Counted from the stretch's first letter, positions 33,268-43,005 are shown. The stretch: DNA of 43,005 nucleotides from Ignavibacteria bacterium (GCA_016178595.1 JACOSY010000028.1:1-43005); one strand, 5' to 3'. A program made the numbers and translations. The notes: generated by a model not told the origin, from the letters alone.

Positions 33268-36200
33268 ATGAAATTTGCAGCATCTCTGCTCCTTTTCGCA
33301 TCCTTATGCTTCAGTCGGCAAACTCCACCACCTCAGCAACGCACTCCCATTACGATGGACGACATGGTGATCGACGTGACCGGCCCATCGCGGGAGATCG
33401 CGTACACGAATAAGATCGCCGGCGTCTTCTACACCGAGACGAACGCTCAGCACCGCTCGGCCTGGCAGGGATGGCGTATTTACGGTAAGGAAGTCATGGA
33501 AGATTACCGGATCACTTTCGACGGAAAGGAGTTGAAGCGGTCGGACGTGGTTCGTACGCGTGTCTATCCGCACCAGTTCATTCGCGAATATAAGAACGGC
33601 ATCATTGAAAAAGTGACACTTGCCGATACCGTCAACGCGATCATCATCGAGCTGAATAACGTTCCGGGCAAGAACGTCTCGATCGAGCCGCTCTTCAGTG
33701 GTATTCATCGGCCCGAGGAGTACTACATCCGAACCAATGGAGGCATCATGGTGATTGCACGAGAGGATCACCGCACGACCACCCCGGAAGAACAATATCC
33801 CGGTTGGATTGCAGTTGCCGTGTCGCCGGGCCGCATCTACTCGCTGCCCTTCTACTTCCCCAATCAATACGGGAAGAATTTCTCGCGCGCCTATCTCGAA
33901 TCAGTGGTGCCCAGTAAAGAGTATGCGATGGTGATTACCGCGGGCGATTCCGGTAATCAAGCGTTCGGTGTGGCTGAGAAATTGATCGATAACTATCCCG
34001 ATAATCTCGACAACAGGAAAGCACGCTTCGAACGCCTGCTGAACGATTCGTACTTCAGAACCGATAACAGGCAGCTCGATCTTGCGGTGAACTGGGCGAA
34101 AGTCTCAATGGATGCGCTCATCATGCATCAGGGACAAAAGGGAATTTTCGCCGGCTTGCCGTGGTTCGATACTTATAGGGGACGAGACACGCACATCTCT
34201 CTTCCCGGCGCAACACTGGTGACCGGCAACTTCGCCGATGCGAAGACGATCCTCCGCACGTTTGTTTCATGGCAGGATACGGATGCCACGAGCACGAGCT
34301 ACGGACGCATCCCGAATCAAGTCACGACGAATGCTATCTCGTACAACACCGCCGATGGAACGCCAAGGTTTACCATCGCCCTGCAAGAGTATCTGGATTA
34401 TTCAGGCGATACGGCTTTTGCTCACGAGATGTATCCGGTCGTGAAACGCGCCGTTGAAGGAACGATCAAGTACCACACCGATACACTCGGCTTTTTGACA
34501 CACGGTGATGCTGAGACATGGATGGATGCTGTTGGTCCAAACGGACCCTGGAGCCCGCGGGGAAATCGTGCCAACGATGTCCAGGCGTTGTGGTACAAGC
34601 AGCTTCGTGCCGCAACATCGCTTGCCGACTTCGTGAATGCAAAGGGAAGCGAGAACGCATCGATAGATCGGTGGTCGAAGCTTGCCGAAAAGGTGATGAA
34701 GAATTTCCAAAAATATTTTATCGATCCCCAATCGCATCTCGTGTACGATCATCTCAATGTCGACGGCACTCCCGATCGGCAGCTCAGACCCAACCAGCTC
34801 TTCACGTTCGATTTGATTCAGGATCGAACGATCAGGGCGCAGGTTTTGAAGACGGTTACCGAACAGCTCGTGTACTCTCATGGAACAGCGTCACTATCAC
34901 AAGATGACGACAACTTTCATCCGTATCATCATGACATGCCGTTCTATGTACAGGATGCCGCATACCATAACGGCGTTGTGTGGACATGGCTTGCGGGTGA
35001 ATGGATCGATCAAGCGACTACCGGCGGGATGAGCGATCTTGCATTTCAAGTGACACTCAACATGGCTCGTCAAATGCTCGATCGCGGAGCGGTCGGTACA
35101 TTATCCGAGTTGATTGACGCGGCACCGCGGACGGGCGGAACGGAGCCGCAGCTCTCCGGCGCTTACTCGCAGGCTTCGAGCCTGGCGGAGTTCATCCGCT
35201 CGATCTATCAATCATACTTAGGAGCGAAGGTGAGCGGAATGGGTTCCACGCTGTCGCTTGATCCGAGAGTTCCATCCATGATCCGATTTGCCGATTTCAA
35301 TGTGCCGGTCGGATCGACCACTGTCCAAGTGCAGTACCGTCGTGCGGGCGATTCGCTCGTTGTCAATATGTCTTCTCCGAAGAATGGAAAAGAGATTGGC
35401 GTCGAATGCACGAGTTCGCCGGAATCCGTAACACAGCGGATCTCTTCCGGAAAGACGACGCTTGCTCCGAATTCTCAAATAACGCTGCTTCTCGATAAGA
35501 ATGGCATCGTGCAGCAGCATGGTCAAGGCGAGAAAAAAAATCCCACAGAAACAGTGATAGGCAGAATCGATGCTTCGGTGCTTGCGGGCGTTCAACTCGC
35601 AACACCTGTCGTCCGGCCCGATCTCAAGTCGCTCAAGGGTCCCGATCATCCACTGCTTAAGAATGATGAGATCAAACAGCCGGCTTCATCGGCAACACTC
35701 CTGTATAGTGTCGGTGATCCTGTTGGAGATGATAAAGGAACAGGCTCGTACACGTATCCGAAAATTTCGTTACTAAAACCCGGCAGTCTCGATATTACAC
35801 ACTTCACTGTTTCCGCCGATGAGAAGAACGTCTACTTCACGCTCGTGTTCGATACGCTATCGGATCCGGAATGGCATCCCGAATACGGTTTCCAGTTGAC
35901 GTATGCCGCCATCGCCATCGATAAAGACAAGAGATCCGGTTCCGGACAGACGAAGGTTGGGATGAATGCACACTACGCGTTCAAGAAAGATTTCGCATTC
36001 GAAAACATCATCTATGTCGGCGGTGGTATTGAGATAGACGATGCCCAGGGGAACATACTCGCCGAGTACATTCCCGTGCCCGGAGATGAGGCGAATCCAC
36101 TCGGCAGCACACAGACGAAGACCGTGGAGTTCTCGCTTCCTGTGAGTCTGATAGGAAAACCGCGGCCAGTCTGGCGATACGCAGTGCTGATCGGTGCACA

Positions 36201-36336
36201 GGACGATCATGGCGGTGCGGGCATTGGTGAGTTCCGGAACGTCGGTGCGACCGCGTCGAGTTTGGTTGGTGGTGGCAAGACGAAGCCGACTGACCCGAAC
36301 GTGTACGACGCCATATTGCCGTCGAAGTCGAAATAG
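33268..36336 (+). CDS. Secreted amylo-alpha-1,6-glucosidase-like (GH133) protein with glucodextranase-type C-terminal domain
   Basis: This 1022-residue protein has a signal peptide (KFAASLLLFASLCFS, then RQTPP). Residues about 40-240 are the N-terminal beta domain of glycogen debranching enzymes. Residues about 260-650 form the (alpha/alpha)6 barrel with LPWFDTYRGRDTHISLPG, HGDAETWMDA and RGNRANDVQALWY, the hallmark acidic segments of GDE C-terminal domains. Residues about 810-1000 (GDPVGDDKGTGSYTYP..., LDITHFTVSADEKNVYFTL) match the C-terminal module of glucodextranase. It probably hydrolyses alpha-1,6 or related glucans outside the cytoplasm. Export is odd because most GDEs are cytoplasmic. 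The next gene starts immediately after the stop. Confidence 0.88.
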   Translation: MKFAASLLLFASLCFSRQTPPPQQRTPITMDDMVIDVTGPSREIAYTNKIAGVFYTETNAQHRSAWQGWRIYGKEVMEDYRITFDGKELKRSDVVRTRVYPHQFIREYKNGIIEKVTLADTVNAIIIELNNVPGKNVSIEPLFSGIHRPEEYYIRTNGGIMVIAREDHRTTTPEEQYPGWIAVAVSPGRIYSLPFYFPNQYGKNFSRAYLESVVPSKEYAMVITAGDSGNQAFGVAEKLIDNYPDNLDNRKARFERLLNDSYFRTDNRQLDLAVNWAKVSMDALIMHQGQKGIFAGLPWFDTYRGRDTHISLPGATLVTGNFADAKTILRTFVSWQDTDATSTSYGRIPNQVTTNAISYNTADGTPRFTIALQEYLDYSGDTAFAHEMYPVVKRAVEGTIKYHTDTLGFLTHGDAETWMDAVGPNGPWSPRGNRANDVQALWYKQLRAATSLADFVNAKGSENASIDRWSKLAEKVMKNFQKYFIDPQSHLVYDHLNVDGTPDRQLRPNQLFTFDLIQDRTIRAQVLKTVTEQLVYSHGTASLSQDDDNFHPYHHDMPFYVQDAAYHNGVVWTWLAGEWIDQATTGGMSDLAFQVTLNMARQMLDRGAVGTLSELIDAAPRTGGTEPQLSGAYSQASSLAEFIRSIYQSYLGAKVSGMGSTLSLDPRVPSMIRFADFNVPVGSTTVQVQYRRAGDSLVVNMSSPKNGKEIGVECTSSPESVTQRISSGKTTLAPNSQITLLLDKNGIVQQHGQGEKKNPTETVIGRIDASVLAGVQLATPVVRPDLKSLKGPDHPLLKNDEIKQPASSATLLYSVGDPVGDDKGTGSYTYPKISLLKPGSLDITHFTVSADEKNVYFTLVFDTLSDPEWHPEYGFQLTYAAIAIDKDKRSGSGQTKVGMNAHYAFKKDFAFENIIYVGGGIEIDDAQGNILAEYIPVPGDEANPLGSTQTKTVEFSLPVSLIGKPRPVWRYAVLIGAQDDHGGAGIGEFRNVGATASSLVGGGKTKPTDPNVYDAILPSKSK

Positions 36337-37600: not shown

Positions 37601-37636
37601 GGCGCGCGGCCTCGATGGTGTGCGCCGTTTTCATTT
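37601..37636 (+). terminator. Intrinsic terminator after the DinB-like gene
   Basis: GGCGCGC (37601-37607) pairs with GTGCGCC (37620-37626, one G-T pair), followed by GTTTTCATTTTCC. It overlaps the stop codon of the converging transporter gene by a few bases. Confidence 0.55.
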
Positions 37637-39115
37637 TCCTTCTCTCAACGCTGAACGCCCAATTCCCCAGAACAGCAGACTCACGAAAAGCCCCGGGTAC
37701 ATCGGCTCGATGCCAAGAGGATATGAATCCGAATGGAGGATTGTGTATCGCGACACCATCCATGCAAGCGAGGTGAGCCATCCTAACAGCATCGAGAGGA
37801 ATGCGTACCGTGGAGGTATCTTGATTCCATCGAAATAGCTCGCAATGAGCGGAACCAGCAATCCGGGAATAATGATTGTGCCGATCGTGTACCAGAGCTG
37901 GATGACGCTGGGAATGAGCAGCGCGAGAGCGACTGAGACACCGAATGAAACGATTAATCCGACTTGAGTGAGCAGGACGGATGAATGAAGCCGGTTTGGG
38001 GTTTGGGGTTGGAGGTTTGAGAGAGAGCTTTTCCACTCAAACCCCGAACCTCGAACCTCGAATCTCGTTCCAATCCTCGAACCCAGAACCCCCAACCTCA
38101 TCACAATATCTCTGCCCAACGTCTGTGCAGACACAAACGCCAGCGTATTCAACGTCGACATGATTGTTGCGAGCATTCCCACGTAGAATAATCCTTTCGC
38201 AATCGGAGGCAAAACAGCTTCAGCGAGCATTGGATATGCCATGATCGGCTGTTGGAGATCGGGAAGCGCCGCGCGTGCGTACAGTCCTGCAGTTGCCGTC
38301 ATGAAATCAAATAGAAACCAAAAAAAAATAGAAATAAGGATACCGTGCTGTGCGATGCGCCCGTCTTTTGCGGCATAACAGCGCTGGTGAAACGCCGGAT
38401 CGACGAGTGTCCAGAGCGCGATGAAGAACCACACCAGGATGTACTGGATGGAATTTCCTCCGTGCCATGTCAGATGAAGCGGCGGAAGATGTTGATTGAG
38501 AAAATCCGATCCTCCAAACCGATTGAAACAAAAGGGAATGATGACGGCAAACCCTGCAAACATCAGCACGAATTCCAACACGTCCGTTTCGACATCCGAA
38601 CGGAATCCTCCCACGTAGAGATAGGAAACGGCAACGATTGCCGTAACGATCAAGCTCACAAATAAACTCCATCCGAACAACATTTGCAGGAAAACACTCA
38701 ACATCAGGATGTACGGCGCCGGTGTCATCAAGATAAATGTCAGAAAAGACCCGAGGAGCGCGGTCTTCTTGTCGTACGATTGCGCGAGCTTGTCGGGAAT
38801 ACTGTAAAGATTGGTTGCGCGAATTTTTTTTGCAAGCAGAAATGCGAACACCGCCGCAAAAATATAGTACGGCACACCTTGCACGATCCAATTGGAAATC
38901 CCGTAACGGTACGAAAACTCTCCGACACCAAGGATCCCTCCGTACCATGTTGAGACGAGCGTCATCACGAAGATGGGAAGCGTCAGCGACCGGCCTGCAA
39001 GAAGAAAATCTTCTGCCGAGGATTGTGTCTTCCGTCCCGCACGGAATCCGACGAACAGCACGGCGCCGAAATAGAGCGCGATGATGATGGTGTCAGTGAA
39101 CGCCAGGTGGATCAT
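37631..39115 (-). CDS. Sodium:solute symporter (SSS) family transporter, candidate thiamine importer
   Basis: This 494-residue inner-membrane protein has about 13 hydrophobic spans. SSS signatures include IIALYFGAVLFVGFRAGRK at the N-terminus, EDFLLAGRSLTLPIFVMTLV, TWYGGILGVGEF and GLFYVGMLATIMSTLNTLAF. It is the last gene of the TPP-riboswitch operon, 26 bases after the thiamine pyrophosphokinase gene, with GAGGG before ATG. Context therefore points to Na+-driven uptake of thiamine or a precursor. SSS-type candidates under THI-box control (ThiV) have been proposed in other bacteria. Residues about 338-374 (GVLGSRIGTRFEVRG...) come from an inserted palindromic repeat that keeps the frame. Transport specificity is inferred. 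Confidence 0.85.
   Translation of the reverse strand: MIHLAFTDTIIIALYFGAVLFVGFRAGRKTQSSAEDFLLAGRSLTLPIFVMTLVSTWYGGILGVGEFSYRYGISNWIVQGVPYYIFAAVFAFLLAKKIRATNLYSIPDKLAQSYDKKTALLGSFLTFILMTPAPYILMLSVFLQMLFGWSLFVSLIVTAIVAVSYLYVGGFRSDVETDVLEFVLMFAGFAVIIPFCFNRFGGSDFLNQHLPPLHLTWHGGNSIQYILVWFFIALWTLVDPAFHQRCYAAKDGRIAQHGILISIFFWFLFDFMTATAGLYARAALPDLQQPIMAYPMLAEAVLPPIAKGLFYVGMLATIMSTLNTLAFVSAQTLGRDIVMRLGVLGSRIGTRFEVRGSGFEWKSSLSNLQPQTPNRLHSSVLLTQVGLIVSFGVSVALALLIPSVIQLWYTIGTIIIPGLLVPLIASYFDGIKIPPRYAFLSMLLGWLTSLAWMVSRYTILHSDSYPLGIEPMYPGLFVSLLFWGIGRSALREGK
37992..38101. repeat. Palindromic repeat inserted in frame in the SSS transporter gene
   Basis: The left arm (37992-38020) is built from GGTTTGGGG and GGTTGGAGG units ending GGTTTGAG. 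The right arm (38035-38066) is its imperfect complement, starting CTCAAACCCCG with AACCTCG units. A loop of about 14 bases separates them. Further related CCTCGAACCCAG and AACCCCCAACC units run to 38101. The low-complexity translation is unlike a transporter loop, yet the frame stays open. Confidence 0.7.
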
Positions 39116-39141
39116 TGCACCCTCATGCGGATGGAAATTTG

Positions 39142-39765
39142 CTACCGATCATGAAACTGATAGACCAGTAGAGTGCCGCGCCGGACTGTGATGGTGACGC
39201 TTGTTGCCAGCGCTTCGTTGCTGATTCCTTCACGAACACCAAGCTCGAGCGTGTCGTTCGCTAACGGGTACTTGAGATTCTTTGTCGTGATGCCGGTGGT
39301 TTTCTCGACGGGAATGAGTGAAAGCCGCTGTCCGATCTTCGTCTGCAGCCGGATCCGTCGTTTGACAAGCGTGAGTTTTCCGACAGAGTCGATGAGTGTG
39401 ATGAGTGCCTTGCCGGAAAATTTCTTCAAGATGCCGAGCGCCCCGGTCGTGTGGTCGATGCGGTTTCCGAGGGCGCCGATGATGTCGATCGATGTGCACT
39501 TCCGCTCGATGCAGTAACGGATTGCCTTTTCCAGATCGGTGCTCTCTTGATCGGCAATATGGAGGAGTGGAATTCTCTTGTAGATGAGCTTCGTCGACGG
39601 CGAAATCGAATCGAGATCGCCGAGGATGATGTCGGGTCGGATGCCATACTGGCGGGCAAGGTTCGCGCCGCCATCGGCGCAAACGATAAGATTGGCAGAC
39701 GATGCCAGCGAGCGAACAAGCTGACGGGAGGGAAGTTGTCCGTTCGCGATGATGAGTACTTTCAT
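39142..39765 (-). CDS. thiN: Thiamine pyrophosphokinase
   Basis: This 207-residue enzyme transfers pyrophosphate from ATP to thiamine, giving TPP in the cytoplasm. The catalytic-domain motifs are ICADGGAN-like (VCADGGANLA), RPDIILGDLDSIS with Asp50 and Asp52 for metal binding, QESTDLEKAI, and GALGNRIDHTTGAL for thiamine binding. The C-terminal beta domain is present (GQRLSLIPVEKTTGIT...). MKVLIIANG at 39765 is the family N-terminus, so the longer frame from 39813, which would overlap the receptor gene, is rejected. It sits between a TonB receptor and a transporter under a TPP riboswitch, so it traps imported thiamine by phosphorylation. Confidence 0.95.
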   Translation of the reverse strand: MKVLIIANGQLPSRQLVRSLASSANLIVCADGGANLARQYGIRPDIILGDLDSISPSTKLIYKRIPLLHIADQESTDLEKAIRYCIERKCTSIDIIGALGNRIDHTTGALGILKKFSGKALITLIDSVGKLTLVKRRIRLQTKIGQRLSLIPVEKTTGITTKNLKYPLANDTLELGVREGISNEALATSVTITVRRGTLLVYQFHDR

Positions 39766-39788
39766 GGCATTTTCGATGAGCGCTCCGG

Positions 39789-42050
39789 TTATAGGTTCGC
39801 TGTGATGCCGCAAATGTAATTCCGCTCTGCCGCAGGGAAGAAGGCGTCGCCTTCGCCGTTCTGGAAGTAAAGATTGTTGAAGATATTCCGGATTTCACCT
39901 CGCAACGTGAACTGCGATCCGAGAACACGAGGGAGACGATAGAGAAACTCAGTATTCACGACTGTATAAGCGTCATTCTTGCGCGTTTCATTGTTGGAAT
40001 TGTCGGTAGAGAACTCGCCGACGTATTTTGTAACTATCGATGACGTTACGCTTTCGGTTTTGTATGTCAGGCGCACGTTGCCGAGCACGTCCGGAAAACC
40101 GGCAATCGGGTTGTCATCAAAGCTGACCCGCGTACCACTGTCGTCGATCAGACTGTAGCGGATGAGTCGATTGCGAGAGAGCGAGACATTTCCACTGAGT
40201 TGAAATGTGCTGCTCAGAGTTGCGCTGCCATCAAGCTCGACGCCGAGGTGTCGCGTGCGCTCTGCATTGCCCGTTACCGGCTGGCCGAAAATATCGAGCT
40301 GGCCATTTTTTACCAGCTCGTCGGTGAATTCCATCCAGTAGACGTTTGCGGTGAGCTGCGCATTGGCATTGCGAAAGCCCGCGCCCAACTCAACGTCGAG
40401 CAGCCGCTCAGGCTTGGCAAGGGGCTTATTGAAATCAAATCGCACGATACCCGTAGCCGTGTCGGCTTGGAATTGCGGCGTTGCACCGAAGTACGAATCT
40501 TCAGCGGCATACAAATTTCGCAATTGCGGCTCCCTCGACGTATAACCGACGGAGAGATACGTATTCCATTCATCGGTCATGTTATAATTGATGCCTGCGC
40601 GAGGGTTCACAAAGTCGTAGGGAAAGCTGAAGGTGTTTCCCAGATATTTTTCGTTCGCAATGCCGTAGCGGTTGTATACGAACTGAATGTCGGCGAGGAT
40701 CGTTAGGTTCTTCTGCGGCCGGAAGAGTTCATGCACGAAGAGCGAAAGGATATCCTTCTCGCCATTATATCCATAGAAGTGATAATCGGGATCGAAGCCC
40801 GAGGGCAATCCTTCCGCGAATTGAATCCTTCCCCAATGTGTCGAGCGATGAATGCGTAGTTCTGCGCCGAATGTCATCGTTCCATTACCGTGATCGACTT
40901 CGACTCGCGGCAGCCAGCCCCATTGTTTGTTACCGACGAATGCACGAACAAGTGCATTGGTTGGATTCTGTGTCGTTGGAATTCCATACGCAGTTCCGAG
41001 CCGTAACATTGACGTGTCAGCCCATGAAGCATCGTAATCGAAATAGCCATCGCCGGTGTAGTAGAAGAGAGTGTTGTGAAGCGTGAGCGTTGGGGAAACA
41101 CGCCATTCATTCATCAACTCGTAGTGAGGCTGCGAGAAGCTTTCAGTTTCCTGGGGCCGGCGAGGTATCGCGTAGCTAAATCCCTGGCCCGTCGAATCAA
41201 GTCCCCAATCGACTAAGTTCTGGCGGCGGAGTTTCTTATCGTCCTTCGCGAACTTCGGAAGACCGAAGTACGCAAGCCCGTCCGTCAGTGGTCCACCGAA
41301 GAAGTGAAAGCGCGTCGTTGTATTCTGGTCGAAGCGGGCAGCGCCGAGGAAATATGAGTTCAATTCCACCCACGAGTTCTGCCGGTATCCGTCGCTCAGA
41401 ATTTTTCCCAATCGACCGTACAGCATGTACTGTTTCTCGATGAGACCCGAGTTGATTGTCACGTCGAATTTTTTTGTATTGAGAGGAAGCGAGCGTGAGC
41501 TATCGCCGAACTCCTGGAGGCCGAACATCGATTCGAGTGTCACGCCCGGCCGCTGAGTGAATGGATTCGTCACGAGATTGATCGATCCGCCGATCGCAGG
41601 TGGACCGTAGAACGCGCTTCCCGCACCGCGCTGAACCTGAACCGTTCCGGTGCTCGCAAGGAGATCCGGGAAATCGATCCAGTAGACGTTATGATCTTCG
41701 GGATCGTTCTGAGGAATGCCATTGACCATCACCGAGAGTCGCCGTTGATCGAAGCCGCGCAGGTTGATGTAGTTGTAGCCGATGCCGTTTCCGTTCTCGG
41801 AGTAGAATGTCATCGAGGGAAGCTCCGAGAGCAACACGGGCACATCCTGCACCGAGTAGCGCTCCGCAAGTTGTTCTCGATTCATGTTGGAAAATGTTGC
41901 GGGCGTCTCTCGTTCTTTCGCCTGCGTTGGATTTATGATAACAGGTGATAGGTAATAGGTGCTGGTATCTTGCACAGTCGATGTGGCATCTTGTGCGATG
42001 GCGGAGAGGGCAAAGAGAAACGTACATAATAGTATAATCGGAATACGCAT
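39789..42050 (-). CDS. TonB-dependent outer-membrane receptor, candidate thiamine receptor
   Basis: This 753-residue outer-membrane protein has a signal peptide (IILLCTFLFALSAIA, then QDAT). The plug domain (about 40-165) contains NYINLRGFDQRRLSVMVNGI, VQVQRGAGSAFYGPPAIGG and SINLVT. The 22-strand barrel follows and ends YICGITANL with the usual aromatic-rich terminal strands. It lacks the CarboxypepD-like N-terminal extension of SusC proteins, and no SusD is nearby. It is the first gene after the TPP riboswitch, so it is expected to import thiamine or its phosphates across the outer membrane, powered by TonB. It resembles the riboswitch-controlled OMR receptors of Bacteroidetes in role; specificity is inferred from context. 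Confidence 0.9.
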   Translation of the reverse strand: MRIPIILLCTFLFALSAIAQDATSTVQDTSTYYLSPVIINPTQAKERETPATFSNMNREQLAERYSVQDVPVLLSELPSMTFYSENGNGIGYNYINLRGFDQRRLSVMVNGIPQNDPEDHNVYWIDFPDLLASTGTVQVQRGAGSAFYGPPAIGGSINLVTNPFTQRPGVTLESMFGLQEFGDSSRSLPLNTKKFDVTINSGLIEKQYMLYGRLGKILSDGYRQNSWVELNSYFLGAARFDQNTTTRFHFFGGPLTDGLAYFGLPKFAKDDKKLRRQNLVDWGLDSTGQGFSYAIPRRPQETESFSQPHYELMNEWRVSPTLTLHNTLFYYTGDGYFDYDASWADTSMLRLGTAYGIPTTQNPTNALVRAFVGNKQWGWLPRVEVDHGNGTMTFGAELRIHRSTHWGRIQFAEGLPSGFDPDYHFYGYNGEKDILSLFVHELFRPQKNLTILADIQFVYNRYGIANEKYLGNTFSFPYDFVNPRAGINYNMTDEWNTYLSVGYTSREPQLRNLYAAEDSYFGATPQFQADTATGIVRFDFNKPLAKPERLLDVELGAGFRNANAQLTANVYWMEFTDELVKNGQLDIFGQPVTGNAERTRHLGVELDGSATLSSTFQLSGNVSLSRNRLIRYSLIDDSGTRVSFDDNPIAGFPDVLGNVRLTYKTESVTSSIVTKYVGEFSTDNSNNETRKNDAYTVVNTEFLYRLPRVLGSQFTLRGEIRNIFNNLYFQNGEGDAFFPAAERNYICGITANL

Positions 42051-42077
42051 GGTAGTTTGTCCTTAAATTATTCTTTG

Positions 42078-42152
42078 ACCCTCACCCCGTGACCCCTCTC
42101 CCATTGGAGAGAGGTGTTTCGCTTCATTTCGAAAGCGAAACGGGGTGAGGGT
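42078..42152. repeat. Nested palindromic repeat in the receptor leader
   Basis: The outer arms ACCCTCACCCCGT (42078-42090) and ACGGGGTGAGGGT (42140-42152) are perfect 13-bp complements. They enclose two hairpins: CTCTCC/GGAGAG (about 42098-42111) and TTTCGCTT/AAGCGAAA (42117-42140). The element can fold as a three-way junction. It ends 28 bases before the receptor ATG, so it lies in the mRNA leader downstream of the riboswitch. Confidence 0.7.
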
Positions 42153-42167
42153 ACAGAAAACACAAAT

Positions 42168-42212
42168 GCCGTTTTCCCGATCTCCCGGCGAATGGGAGAA
42201 AAGAAAAACGGC
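42168..42212 (-). terminator. Riboswitch-controlled terminator (expression platform)
   Basis: On the minus strand GCCGTTTT pairs with AAAACGGC (42205-42212 and 42168-42175), with an inner TCTCCC/GGGAGA stem, followed by ATTTGTGTTTTCT. The 5' arm can instead pair, as CCGTTT, with AAACGG at 42232-42237, whose last five bases form the aptamer's closing stem. Ligand binding would therefore free the arm for termination. Confidence 0.6.
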
Positions 42213-42231
42213 ATGTATCGAAACGCGTTTT

Positions 42232-42318
42232 CCGTTTCCCTACGCTGGCATAATCCAGATCAGGTTCCTAGGGTGTAATCTCAGTCCCGGCTGTTATTCT
42301 CCGGGACACCCCTAACGG
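42232..42318 (-). ncRNA. TPP riboswitch (THI box)
   Basis: Read on the minus strand, the element opens with CCGTTAGGGGTG, continues with CTGAGATTACACCC, then GAACCTGATCTGGATTATGCC and AGCGTAGGGAAACGG. These are the conserved TPP-aptamer segments: the CUGAGA pyrimidine-sensor helix and the ACCUGAUCUGG-UAAUGCCAGCG pyrophosphate-sensor helix. Closing stem P1 is CCGTT with AACGG. It lies 182 bases upstream of the TonB receptor and in the same orientation as the receptor-thiN-transporter operon. TPP binding should lower expression. Confidence 0.96.
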
Positions 42319-42325
42319 AGTTCAC

Positions 42326-42358
42326 CAAAAGATACGGAGATGGGGGGAAGAATGCAAA
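42326..42358 (-). promoter_or_regulatory. Putative FCB-type promoter of the thiamine operon
   Basis: On the minus strand TTTG (42358-42355), a 20-base spacer, then TATCTTTTG (42334-42326). The -7 box has one extra T compared with TAnnTTTG. Transcription would start just before the riboswitch. Confidence 0.5.
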
Positions 42359-42455: not shown

Positions 42456-42803
42456 TCACTTCCTCATATACTTCCAATTCCTCGATTTCCCTTCCGCCAT
42501 CCACTCGACGGCAGTTGCGAGACGGCTGTTGCGGGTCTCCTCCGTCTTCGCTTCCGTAATCCACTCGAGGTACTCCTTCTTGTGGGAGTAGCTGAAGCTC
42601 TCGAAGGTCACGAGTGCCTTTTTGTTCTTGCGAAGAGCTGCCACGAAGTAGTCCGGCACGACGAGTTCTGTCTTTGGCTTTTTTGGTTTTGGCGGAAGTT
42701 TTATTCCATCATCGTTCAACTTTTTTGCCTGCTTCATGAGATCAATAATTACTCTATCGGGCGGAAGGTCTTTCAGAGAAGTAATTCTTCCCATATTGCC
42801 CAT
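42456..42803 (-). CDS. YdeI/OmpD-associated (OmdA)-like protein
   Basis: This 115-residue protein has the OmdA/YdeI C-terminal domain: VVPDYFVAALRKNKKALVTF, ESFSYSHKKEYLEWI, TEAKTEETRNSRLATAVEWM. The family has been linked to bacteriocin protection and outer-membrane-protein-associated phenotypes, with the mechanism unclear. A Pro/Lys-rich linker (KLPPKPKKPKTE) precedes the domain. ATG 42803 is chosen because AAGGAGG lies eight bases upstream. The open frame continues back to 42932, but that extension overlaps the IS30 end and is probably not translated. The IS therefore inserted about 70 bases upstream of the gene and may have displaced its promoter. Confidence 0.82.
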   Translation of the reverse strand: MGNMGRITSLKDLPPDRVIIDLMKQAKKLNDDGIKLPPKPKKPKTELVVPDYFVAALRKNKKALVTFESFSYSHKKEYLEWITEAKTEETRNSRLATAVEWMAEGKSRNWKYMRK

Positions 42804-42875
42804 TGCATCTCCTCCTTGATTGCGTCGTTCTTGCAAATAATTCTTAGGATCATTCAGCAATTTCGATTTCATGAG

Positions 42876-42896
42876 TTCTACAAGGAAGTGCAACAC
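42876..42896 (+). repeat. Left terminal inverted repeat of the IS30 element
   Basis: These 21 bases match the reverse complement of 113-133 at 16 positions, including an unbroken AAGTGCAACAC. It lies 29 bases before the transposase start codon, as expected for an IS30 left end. Confidence 0.7.
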
Positions 42897-42925
42897 TCCA
42901 GGAGAGAATTTGTTATTCTTGGAGT

Positions 42926-43005
42926 ATGGCACCTATACCACAGTATCATCAACTGTCTCTTGATGAAAGAGATCATATTGCCGTCTATCGGGCTCAGGGG
43001 TTGTC
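42926..43005 (+). CDS. IS30-family transposase, N-terminal fragment (cut by window end)
   Basis: ATG 42926 opens a frame running off the window after 26 codons. MAPIPQYHQLSLDERDHIAV followed by YRAQGLS matches the N-terminal helix-turn-helix of IS30 transposases (YxxLxxxER..I....xxGxS). TTGGAG precedes the start. Same family and orientation as the C-terminal fragment at 1-132. Confidence 0.85.
   Translation, partial: MAPIPQYHQLSLDERDHIAVYRAQGL

Follow-up and report, generated by a model that had tools for sequence, protein, structure and literature searches.

An SSS-family transporter in the place of PnuT in a TPP-riboswitch operon of Ignavibacteria

Introduction

Which protein carries thiamine across the inner membrane when an operon under a thiamine pyrophosphate (TPP) riboswitch encodes a TonB-dependent receptor and a kinase, together with a transporter of the SSS family? 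This question is raised by a locus of Ignavibacteria bacterium (GCA_016178595.1), which was analyzed here in a window of 43,005 nucleotides (JACOSY010000028.1:1-43005), that is, the whole stretch of DNA under study. In Bacteroides, the OMthi-pnuT-tnr3 system combines a TPP riboswitch, a TonB-dependent receptor, an inner-membrane thiamine carrier, and a thiamine pyrophosphokinase (TPK), often in a single operon (PMC5613172), and is the model for the logic of the operon described here. The inner-membrane step of the Bacteroides operon is PnuT, which has been shown to carry thiamine, whereas the operon in the window encodes an SSS protein, a predicted Na+/solute symporter. The locus thus falls outside the OMthi-PnuT-TPK operon class, given that the SSS gene stands where this class has PnuT (PF04973). 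An earlier note, made from the sequence of the window, had interpreted this arrangement as a Na+-driven route for thiamine, and its claims are considered below together with the comparative evidence.

The Operon and Its Leader

The earlier note placed a promoter, a TPP aptamer, a TonB receptor, a kinase, and an SSS transporter in one minus-strand unit, and all five were recovered in the positions that it gave. The unit runs from approximately 42357 to 37631, in the order promoter-like element, TPP aptamer, hairpins, TonB-dependent receptor, TPK, and SSS transporter, with all of these features on the minus strand. The intergenic gaps among the three genes are 23 and 26 nt, which indicates that they belong to one transcription unit.

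The first gene (39789..42050) encodes a TonB-dependent receptor, with matches to the beta-barrel (PF00593, 102.7 bits) and plug (PF07715, 61.8 bits) domains that both exceed the gathering score, and its product is predicted to be an outer-membrane thiamine receptor, in an OMthi-type role. The second gene (39142..39765; TIGR01378, PF04263, PF04265) encodes the thiamine pyrophosphokinase (thiN/tnr3 role), which scores 154.5 bits against the TIGR01378 equivalog model (cut-off 76.4), and is the only TPK gene of the genome. Its start is likely the ATG at 39765, rather than an upstream TTG. The third gene (37631..39115; PF00474) encodes the SSS-family transporter, a predicted Na+/thiamine symporter of 494 aa. 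The gene upstream of the riboswitch (42456-42932, minus strand) encodes a YdeI/OmdA-type protein that is unrelated to the operon. Elsewhere in the window, a plus-strand gene (33268-36336) encodes a protein of 1022 aa in which GDE_C and glucodextranase C-terminal domains were identified. This protein is likely a glycosidase, either periplasmic or secreted.

The leader contains a TPP riboswitch aptamer (THI element, RF00059) at 42220..42323, which matches the Rfam model over its full length (positions 1-105), with 75.6 bits (gathering score 54.3) and an E value of 2.9e-13. Just upstream of the aptamer is a promoter-like element, TTG-N20-TATCTT (42329..42357). Of 28 related TPP leaders, 22 have a motif of the form TTG-N17-21-TATNTT ahead of the aptamer, whereas in the shuffled sequences this number averaged 0.9 and never exceeded 5. 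A scan of the leader for E. coli-type sigma-70 promoters found no match. The Bacteroidota-type TAnnTTTG promoter was rejected, as it lies near the aptamer in few of the leaders, and the TTG-TATNTT motif provides a far better fit.

Folding of the sequence that follows the aptamer revealed a terminator-like hairpin and then a U-rich stretch (42158..42219), which is probably the expression platform. The minimum free energy of this hairpin is -32.6 kcal/mol (80 nt folded), with a z score of -6.2, and no shuffled sequence was as stable. Similarly, in each of the 28 leaders, the 112-nt stretch 3' of the aptamer exceeds its shuffles in stability (z scores of -1.5 to -6.6). A second palindromic hairpin (42078..42152), with a perfect inverted repeat of 13 nt, had no match in any other locus compared.

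Exchange with PnuT

The claim that the SSS protein stands in the place of PnuT can be evaluated through the relatives of the source organism. An orthologue of the SSS gene is present in 35 of the 40 genomes of the order, and 31 of these genes are on the same contig and strand as a TPP riboswitch, 2.75-5.6 kb downstream from it, while the remaining four sit on broken or short contigs. Across this Ignavibacteria order, the SSS-bearing operon is the standard arrangement. Four genomes that have no SSS gene (G016, G017, G026, and G035) present the order riboswitch-receptor-TPK-PnuT, with PnuT located 3.0-3.2 kb downstream. The slot is the same, and the receptor and kinase genes that precede it are orthologous to those of the SSS operons, so that the receptor keeps its position in the operons with PnuT. 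The identical operon position is thus occupied by PnuT in relatives without the SSS gene, which bears out the earlier note on this point, and provides direct comparative evidence, by position, that the SSS protein takes the place of PnuT. The fifth genome of the order without the SSS gene (G012, 79% complete) had no PnuT match, and one further genome (G036) has the SSS gene in the operon plus a PnuT gene on another contig. In the latter (L170, G036:C48:4735-8043), PnuT, a second candidate for the inner-membrane step, is directly followed by a long receptor-like ORF.

The same relationship is seen in a wider sample of the phylum, for which 99 genomes were drawn evenly. PnuT was found in 42 of these genomes and the SSS protein in 29, with none containing both (12.3 would be expected by chance), although this exclusion largely tracks phylogeny, and its P values are nominal and overstate the independence of the genomes. 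Seventeen of the 30 families have PnuT and 10 have the SSS protein, and both occur in a single family (f23), in different genomes, with PnuT in 11 of its 12 genomes and the SSS protein in the twelfth. The swaps within the order and within this family represent stronger evidence than the exclusion at the phylum level.

In one family (f2, genus g12), the TPP operon also contains ThiE, ahead of the receptor, TPK, and SSS genes (L172, G025:C9:24500-34500), and a ThiE match was also found at G015:C18:483861-484406. The neighbors of ThiE in operons of this type resemble ThiM and ThiL in their sequences, suggesting precursor salvage there.

Thiamine Genes in the Source Genome

The source genome (3.1 Mb, 96.9% complete) provides the context for the interpretation of the operon. 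The earlier note had observed that no thiamine biosynthesis gene was visible in the window, in keeping with salvage, and had proposed searches for pnuT, thiC, and thiE in the genome. These searches recovered none of the three, and no match to ThiN was found either, so that the observation on the window extends to the whole genome for ThiC, ThiE, and ThiN, while all of these searches, including that for PnuT (PF04973), matched the control genomes. The operon contains the sole TPP riboswitch of the genome, and the separate PnuT under another TPP riboswitch, which the earlier note had named as contrary evidence, is therefore absent. Given the lack of a TMP synthase, the precursors cannot be assembled, which leaves intact thiamine, the substrate of TPK, as the only usable form. 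It is predicted that the organism is auxotrophic for thiamine and depends on salvage. As ThiC is absent from all 40 genomes searched in the order, a dependence on outside thiamine or a precursor looks general.

These data also bear on a different role for the transporter, that of a ThiV/SSSP-type carrier of the pyrimidine precursor HMP (or of thiazole), in which case the operon would salvage precursors, rather than intact thiamine. The ThiV of SAR11, which belongs to the SSS family and is likewise controlled by a TPP riboswitch, is a likely HMP carrier (PMC11452348), and the presence of ThiE in the same operon in two relatives (G025 and G015), beside ThiM-like and ThiL-like neighbors, points in the same direction. 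In the genome studied here, however, HMP and thiazole cannot be joined in the absence of ThiC, ThiE, and ThiN, the operon encodes TPK, an enzyme that acts on thiamine, and PnuT, which fills the slot of the SSS gene in four relatives, is likewise a carrier of thiamine (PMC5613172). Precursor transport is unlikely, given these findings and the residues of the transporter itself, which are described below.

The Transporter

The SSS protein matches PF00474 with 103.4 bits (gathering score 22.8), while its score against TIGR00813, a stricter superfamily model from NCBI, is 106 bits and falls short of the cut-off (184). The AlphaFold2 model (pLDDT 90.4) contains 13 transmembrane helices, the number of spans that the earlier note had read from the sequence, and its best structural match is CHT1 (Z 39.5), followed by SiaT (37.4) and SGLT1 (36.2). 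The protein is thus assigned to the SSS family (2.A.21, PF00474), with a LeuT-type fold in the predicted structure. Its closest named relatives are in Ignavibacteria assemblies, at approximately 75% identity, while plasmid records yielded only general SSS matches, at approximately 25% identity. The genome contains three SSF-family genes, and the two other than the operon gene adjoin each other on another contig.

The possibility that the protein belongs with the proline, pantothenate, or sugar transporters, which the earlier note had recognized as fatal to its interpretation, was rejected, as its scores are far below the cut-offs of PanF (88.7 against 328), PutP (47 against 515.5), and YidK (PRK10484, 57 against 401). 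A tree of the 34-member SSS family, with PutP, PanF, ActP, SiaT, vSGLT, SMCT1, and CHT as references, recovered the family as one supported clade (100/99) outside all of the reference SSS proteins, and it did not group with PutP, PanF, ActP, vSGLT, SiaT, or SMCT1; the deep branches of this tree are long, and those of the references very long, and the only conclusion drawn from it is that the family is not nested within the references.

The nearest solved proteins in the sequence profile comparison are choline transporters, and CHT1 and a bacterial CHT (8j74, 9rws) are the best match to the SSS protein by profile, tree, and structure, at approximately 19% identity. The roles of the residues that follow as Na+ ligands are taken from CHT1 (PMC11589582). 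The Na2 pair is aligned, with S320 and T321 (CHT1 S346 and S347, in TM8) being invariant in all 34 family members. At the Na3 site, D178 (CHT1 D188) is retained in the window and is an aspartate in 31 of the 34 members, while CHT1 D349 corresponds to N323 in the window, though it is an aspartate in 26 of the 34, and CHT1 S350 corresponds to T324. Most of the residues of the Na+ sites are thus conserved in the alignment.

Three of the six aromatic residues that surround choline in CHT1 align with W57, Y83, and W408 of the SSS protein, which would suit a cationic substrate. The cage residues W141 and W254 of CHT1 are represented by T131 and D239, and CHT1 Y67 falls in a gap. As the aromatic cage of the CHT class (W62, Y91, W141, and W254, and also W406) is incomplete in the SSS protein, the protein was not assigned to the choline transporters. 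D239 is acidic in 29 of the 34 family members, and a conserved acidic residue within an aromatic site would suit the thiazolium cation of thiamine.

The loop that follows TM8 contains an in-frame insert (38000-38085, residues ~343-371 of the SSS protein), which is rich in short GGTTCGAGG-like repeats and has a pLDDT of less than 50. Two relatives (L038 and L034) bear different inserts at the same loop, and the other relatives have none. This insert looks like repeat-derived sequence that is tolerated in a cytoplasmic loop.

Comparison with Known Systems

The same combination of parts is known from one previous description, that of Caldithrix abyssi (Kublanov et al. 2017, PMC5317091), in which Cabys_3975-3977 encode a TonB-dependent receptor, a sodium-solute symporter, and a thiamin pyrophosphokinase, the TPP riboswitch being 163 nt upstream, and in which thiamine biosynthesis is also incomplete (PMC5317091). 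The operon is thus not new in kind. The Caldithrix description comes from another phylum, and covers a single genome in one paragraph, with no comparison with PnuT, distribution, or analysis of the transporter (PMC5317091). Three findings had no counterpart in the open-licence literature that was searched, namely, the exchange of the SSS protein and PnuT in an identical slot, the wide occurrence of the TPK-SSS pairing, and the lack of the ThiV signature residues.

The ThiV, SSSP, and SSSQ proteins of SAR11, Methylobacillus, and algae are also SSS transporters under the control of TPP riboswitches (PMC11452348, PMC4260697). Unlike the operon described here, they are paired with biosynthesis or salvage genes (such as thiE, thiM, thiG, and tenA). 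The published signature of the HMP/thiamin SSS proteins, in the SiaT numbering, consists of Tyr78 (cTMD2), Asp139 (cTMD3), and Phe254 followed by a histidine or other polar residue (cTMD6) (PMC11452348). The signature tyrosine is replaced by tryptophan (W76 in the window) and the aspartate by tyrosine (Y135), both in all 34 family members, and these replacements also argue against the transport of HMP. Position 254 aligns with D239, and F242-H243 lie three residues further on, where the alignment has gaps according to PMC11452348. Given that the signature is absent at two of its three positions, the substrate is not readable from these residues. Judging from them, the assignment of the protein to ThiV/SSSP is not warranted, although its mode of action may well be similar.

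A further example is the fungal Dur31, a member of the SSS family for which there is genetic evidence of thiamin transport, and which is controlled by a TPP riboswitch in many yeasts (PMC5997356). The likeness is by description, and Dur31 differs in being a protein of the eukaryotic plasma membrane, with its riboswitch located in an intron.

The TPK-SSS Pair beyond the Riboswitch

The pairing of TPK with the SSS protein extends beyond the operons of the order. In a set of 80 loci from Ignavibacteria, Balneolota, and Marinimicrobia, 64 have TPK directly upstream of the SSS gene, by a strict criterion. A further 13 of the 80 were scored by the script criterion as being without TPK, although at least two of these (L033 and L036) do have it. 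In the TPK-SSS loci of Balneolota and Marinimicrobia, no receptor was found nearby, and searches with a custom model and Rfam found no TPP riboswitch upstream of the pair. As the pair occurs in the absence of both the receptor and the riboswitch, the transporter is tied to thiamine independently of the riboswitch.

Five of the 13 loci scored as being without TPK (L039, L040, L043, L045, and L110) were examined ORF by ORF, and have none beside the SSS gene. They represent a related SSS clade with a different conserved neighborhood, beside a gene for a large secreted protein, and possibly have a different substrate or a thiamine set whose genes are scattered.

The distribution of the pair is also relevant to the suggestion that the SSS protein is a passenger for an unrelated cation or amino acid, such as choline, with thiamine entering through another inner-membrane route. 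The members of the SSS family transport many solutes, and the nearest solved relatives of this protein are choline transporters, but the set of six aromatics that contact choline is incomplete, with two of them replaced and a third absent. The TPK-SSS adjacency is also kept in three phyla-level groups despite otherwise different neighbors, PnuT substitutes for the SSS protein in the same slot, and the genome has no PnuT. On this evidence, in which the search for another inner-membrane thiamine carrier covered PnuT, there appears to be very little probability that the protein is such a passenger.

Proposed Function and Implications

The interpretation of the locus as a thiamine operon is well supported by comparative genomics, and it is highly probable that this is a TPP-repressed salvage operon, in which the SSS protein carries thiamine with Na+, in the role that PnuT has in most Bacteroidota. 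When the cellular TPP is low, the aptamer would be unoccupied and the leader read through. The TonB-dependent receptor would then move thiamine through the outer membrane, the SSS protein would move thiamine together with Na+ through the inner membrane, and the kinase would convert thiamine to TPP in one step. The TPP would, in turn, act on the riboswitch to close the operon, with transcription probably terminating at the hairpin that follows the aptamer. Here, thiamine is the substrate that we infer from the operon context, and Na+-coupled transport by the SSS protein is a prediction.

A broader reading, which is favored here with some reserve, is that these proteins constitute a subfamily of the SSS transporters, as yet without a name, that takes up thiamine with Na+. 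This subfamily would be distinct from ThiV/SSSP, with the choline transporters as its nearest relatives, and would have repeatedly swapped with PnuT in one slot, behind an otherwise unchanged riboswitch-receptor-kinase cassette, across Bacteroidota sensu lato. The cell would thus alternate between uptake driven by ions and facilitated diffusion with trapping by the kinase.

An uncharacterized transporter subfamily is marked by these findings as the likely thiamine importer in the Ignavibacteria order, Balneolota, and Marinimicrobia, which are mostly uncultured. Given that PnuT and the SSS protein exchange in a single slot, an ion-driven and a facilitated carrier that serve the same pathway can be compared cleanly in a natural setting.
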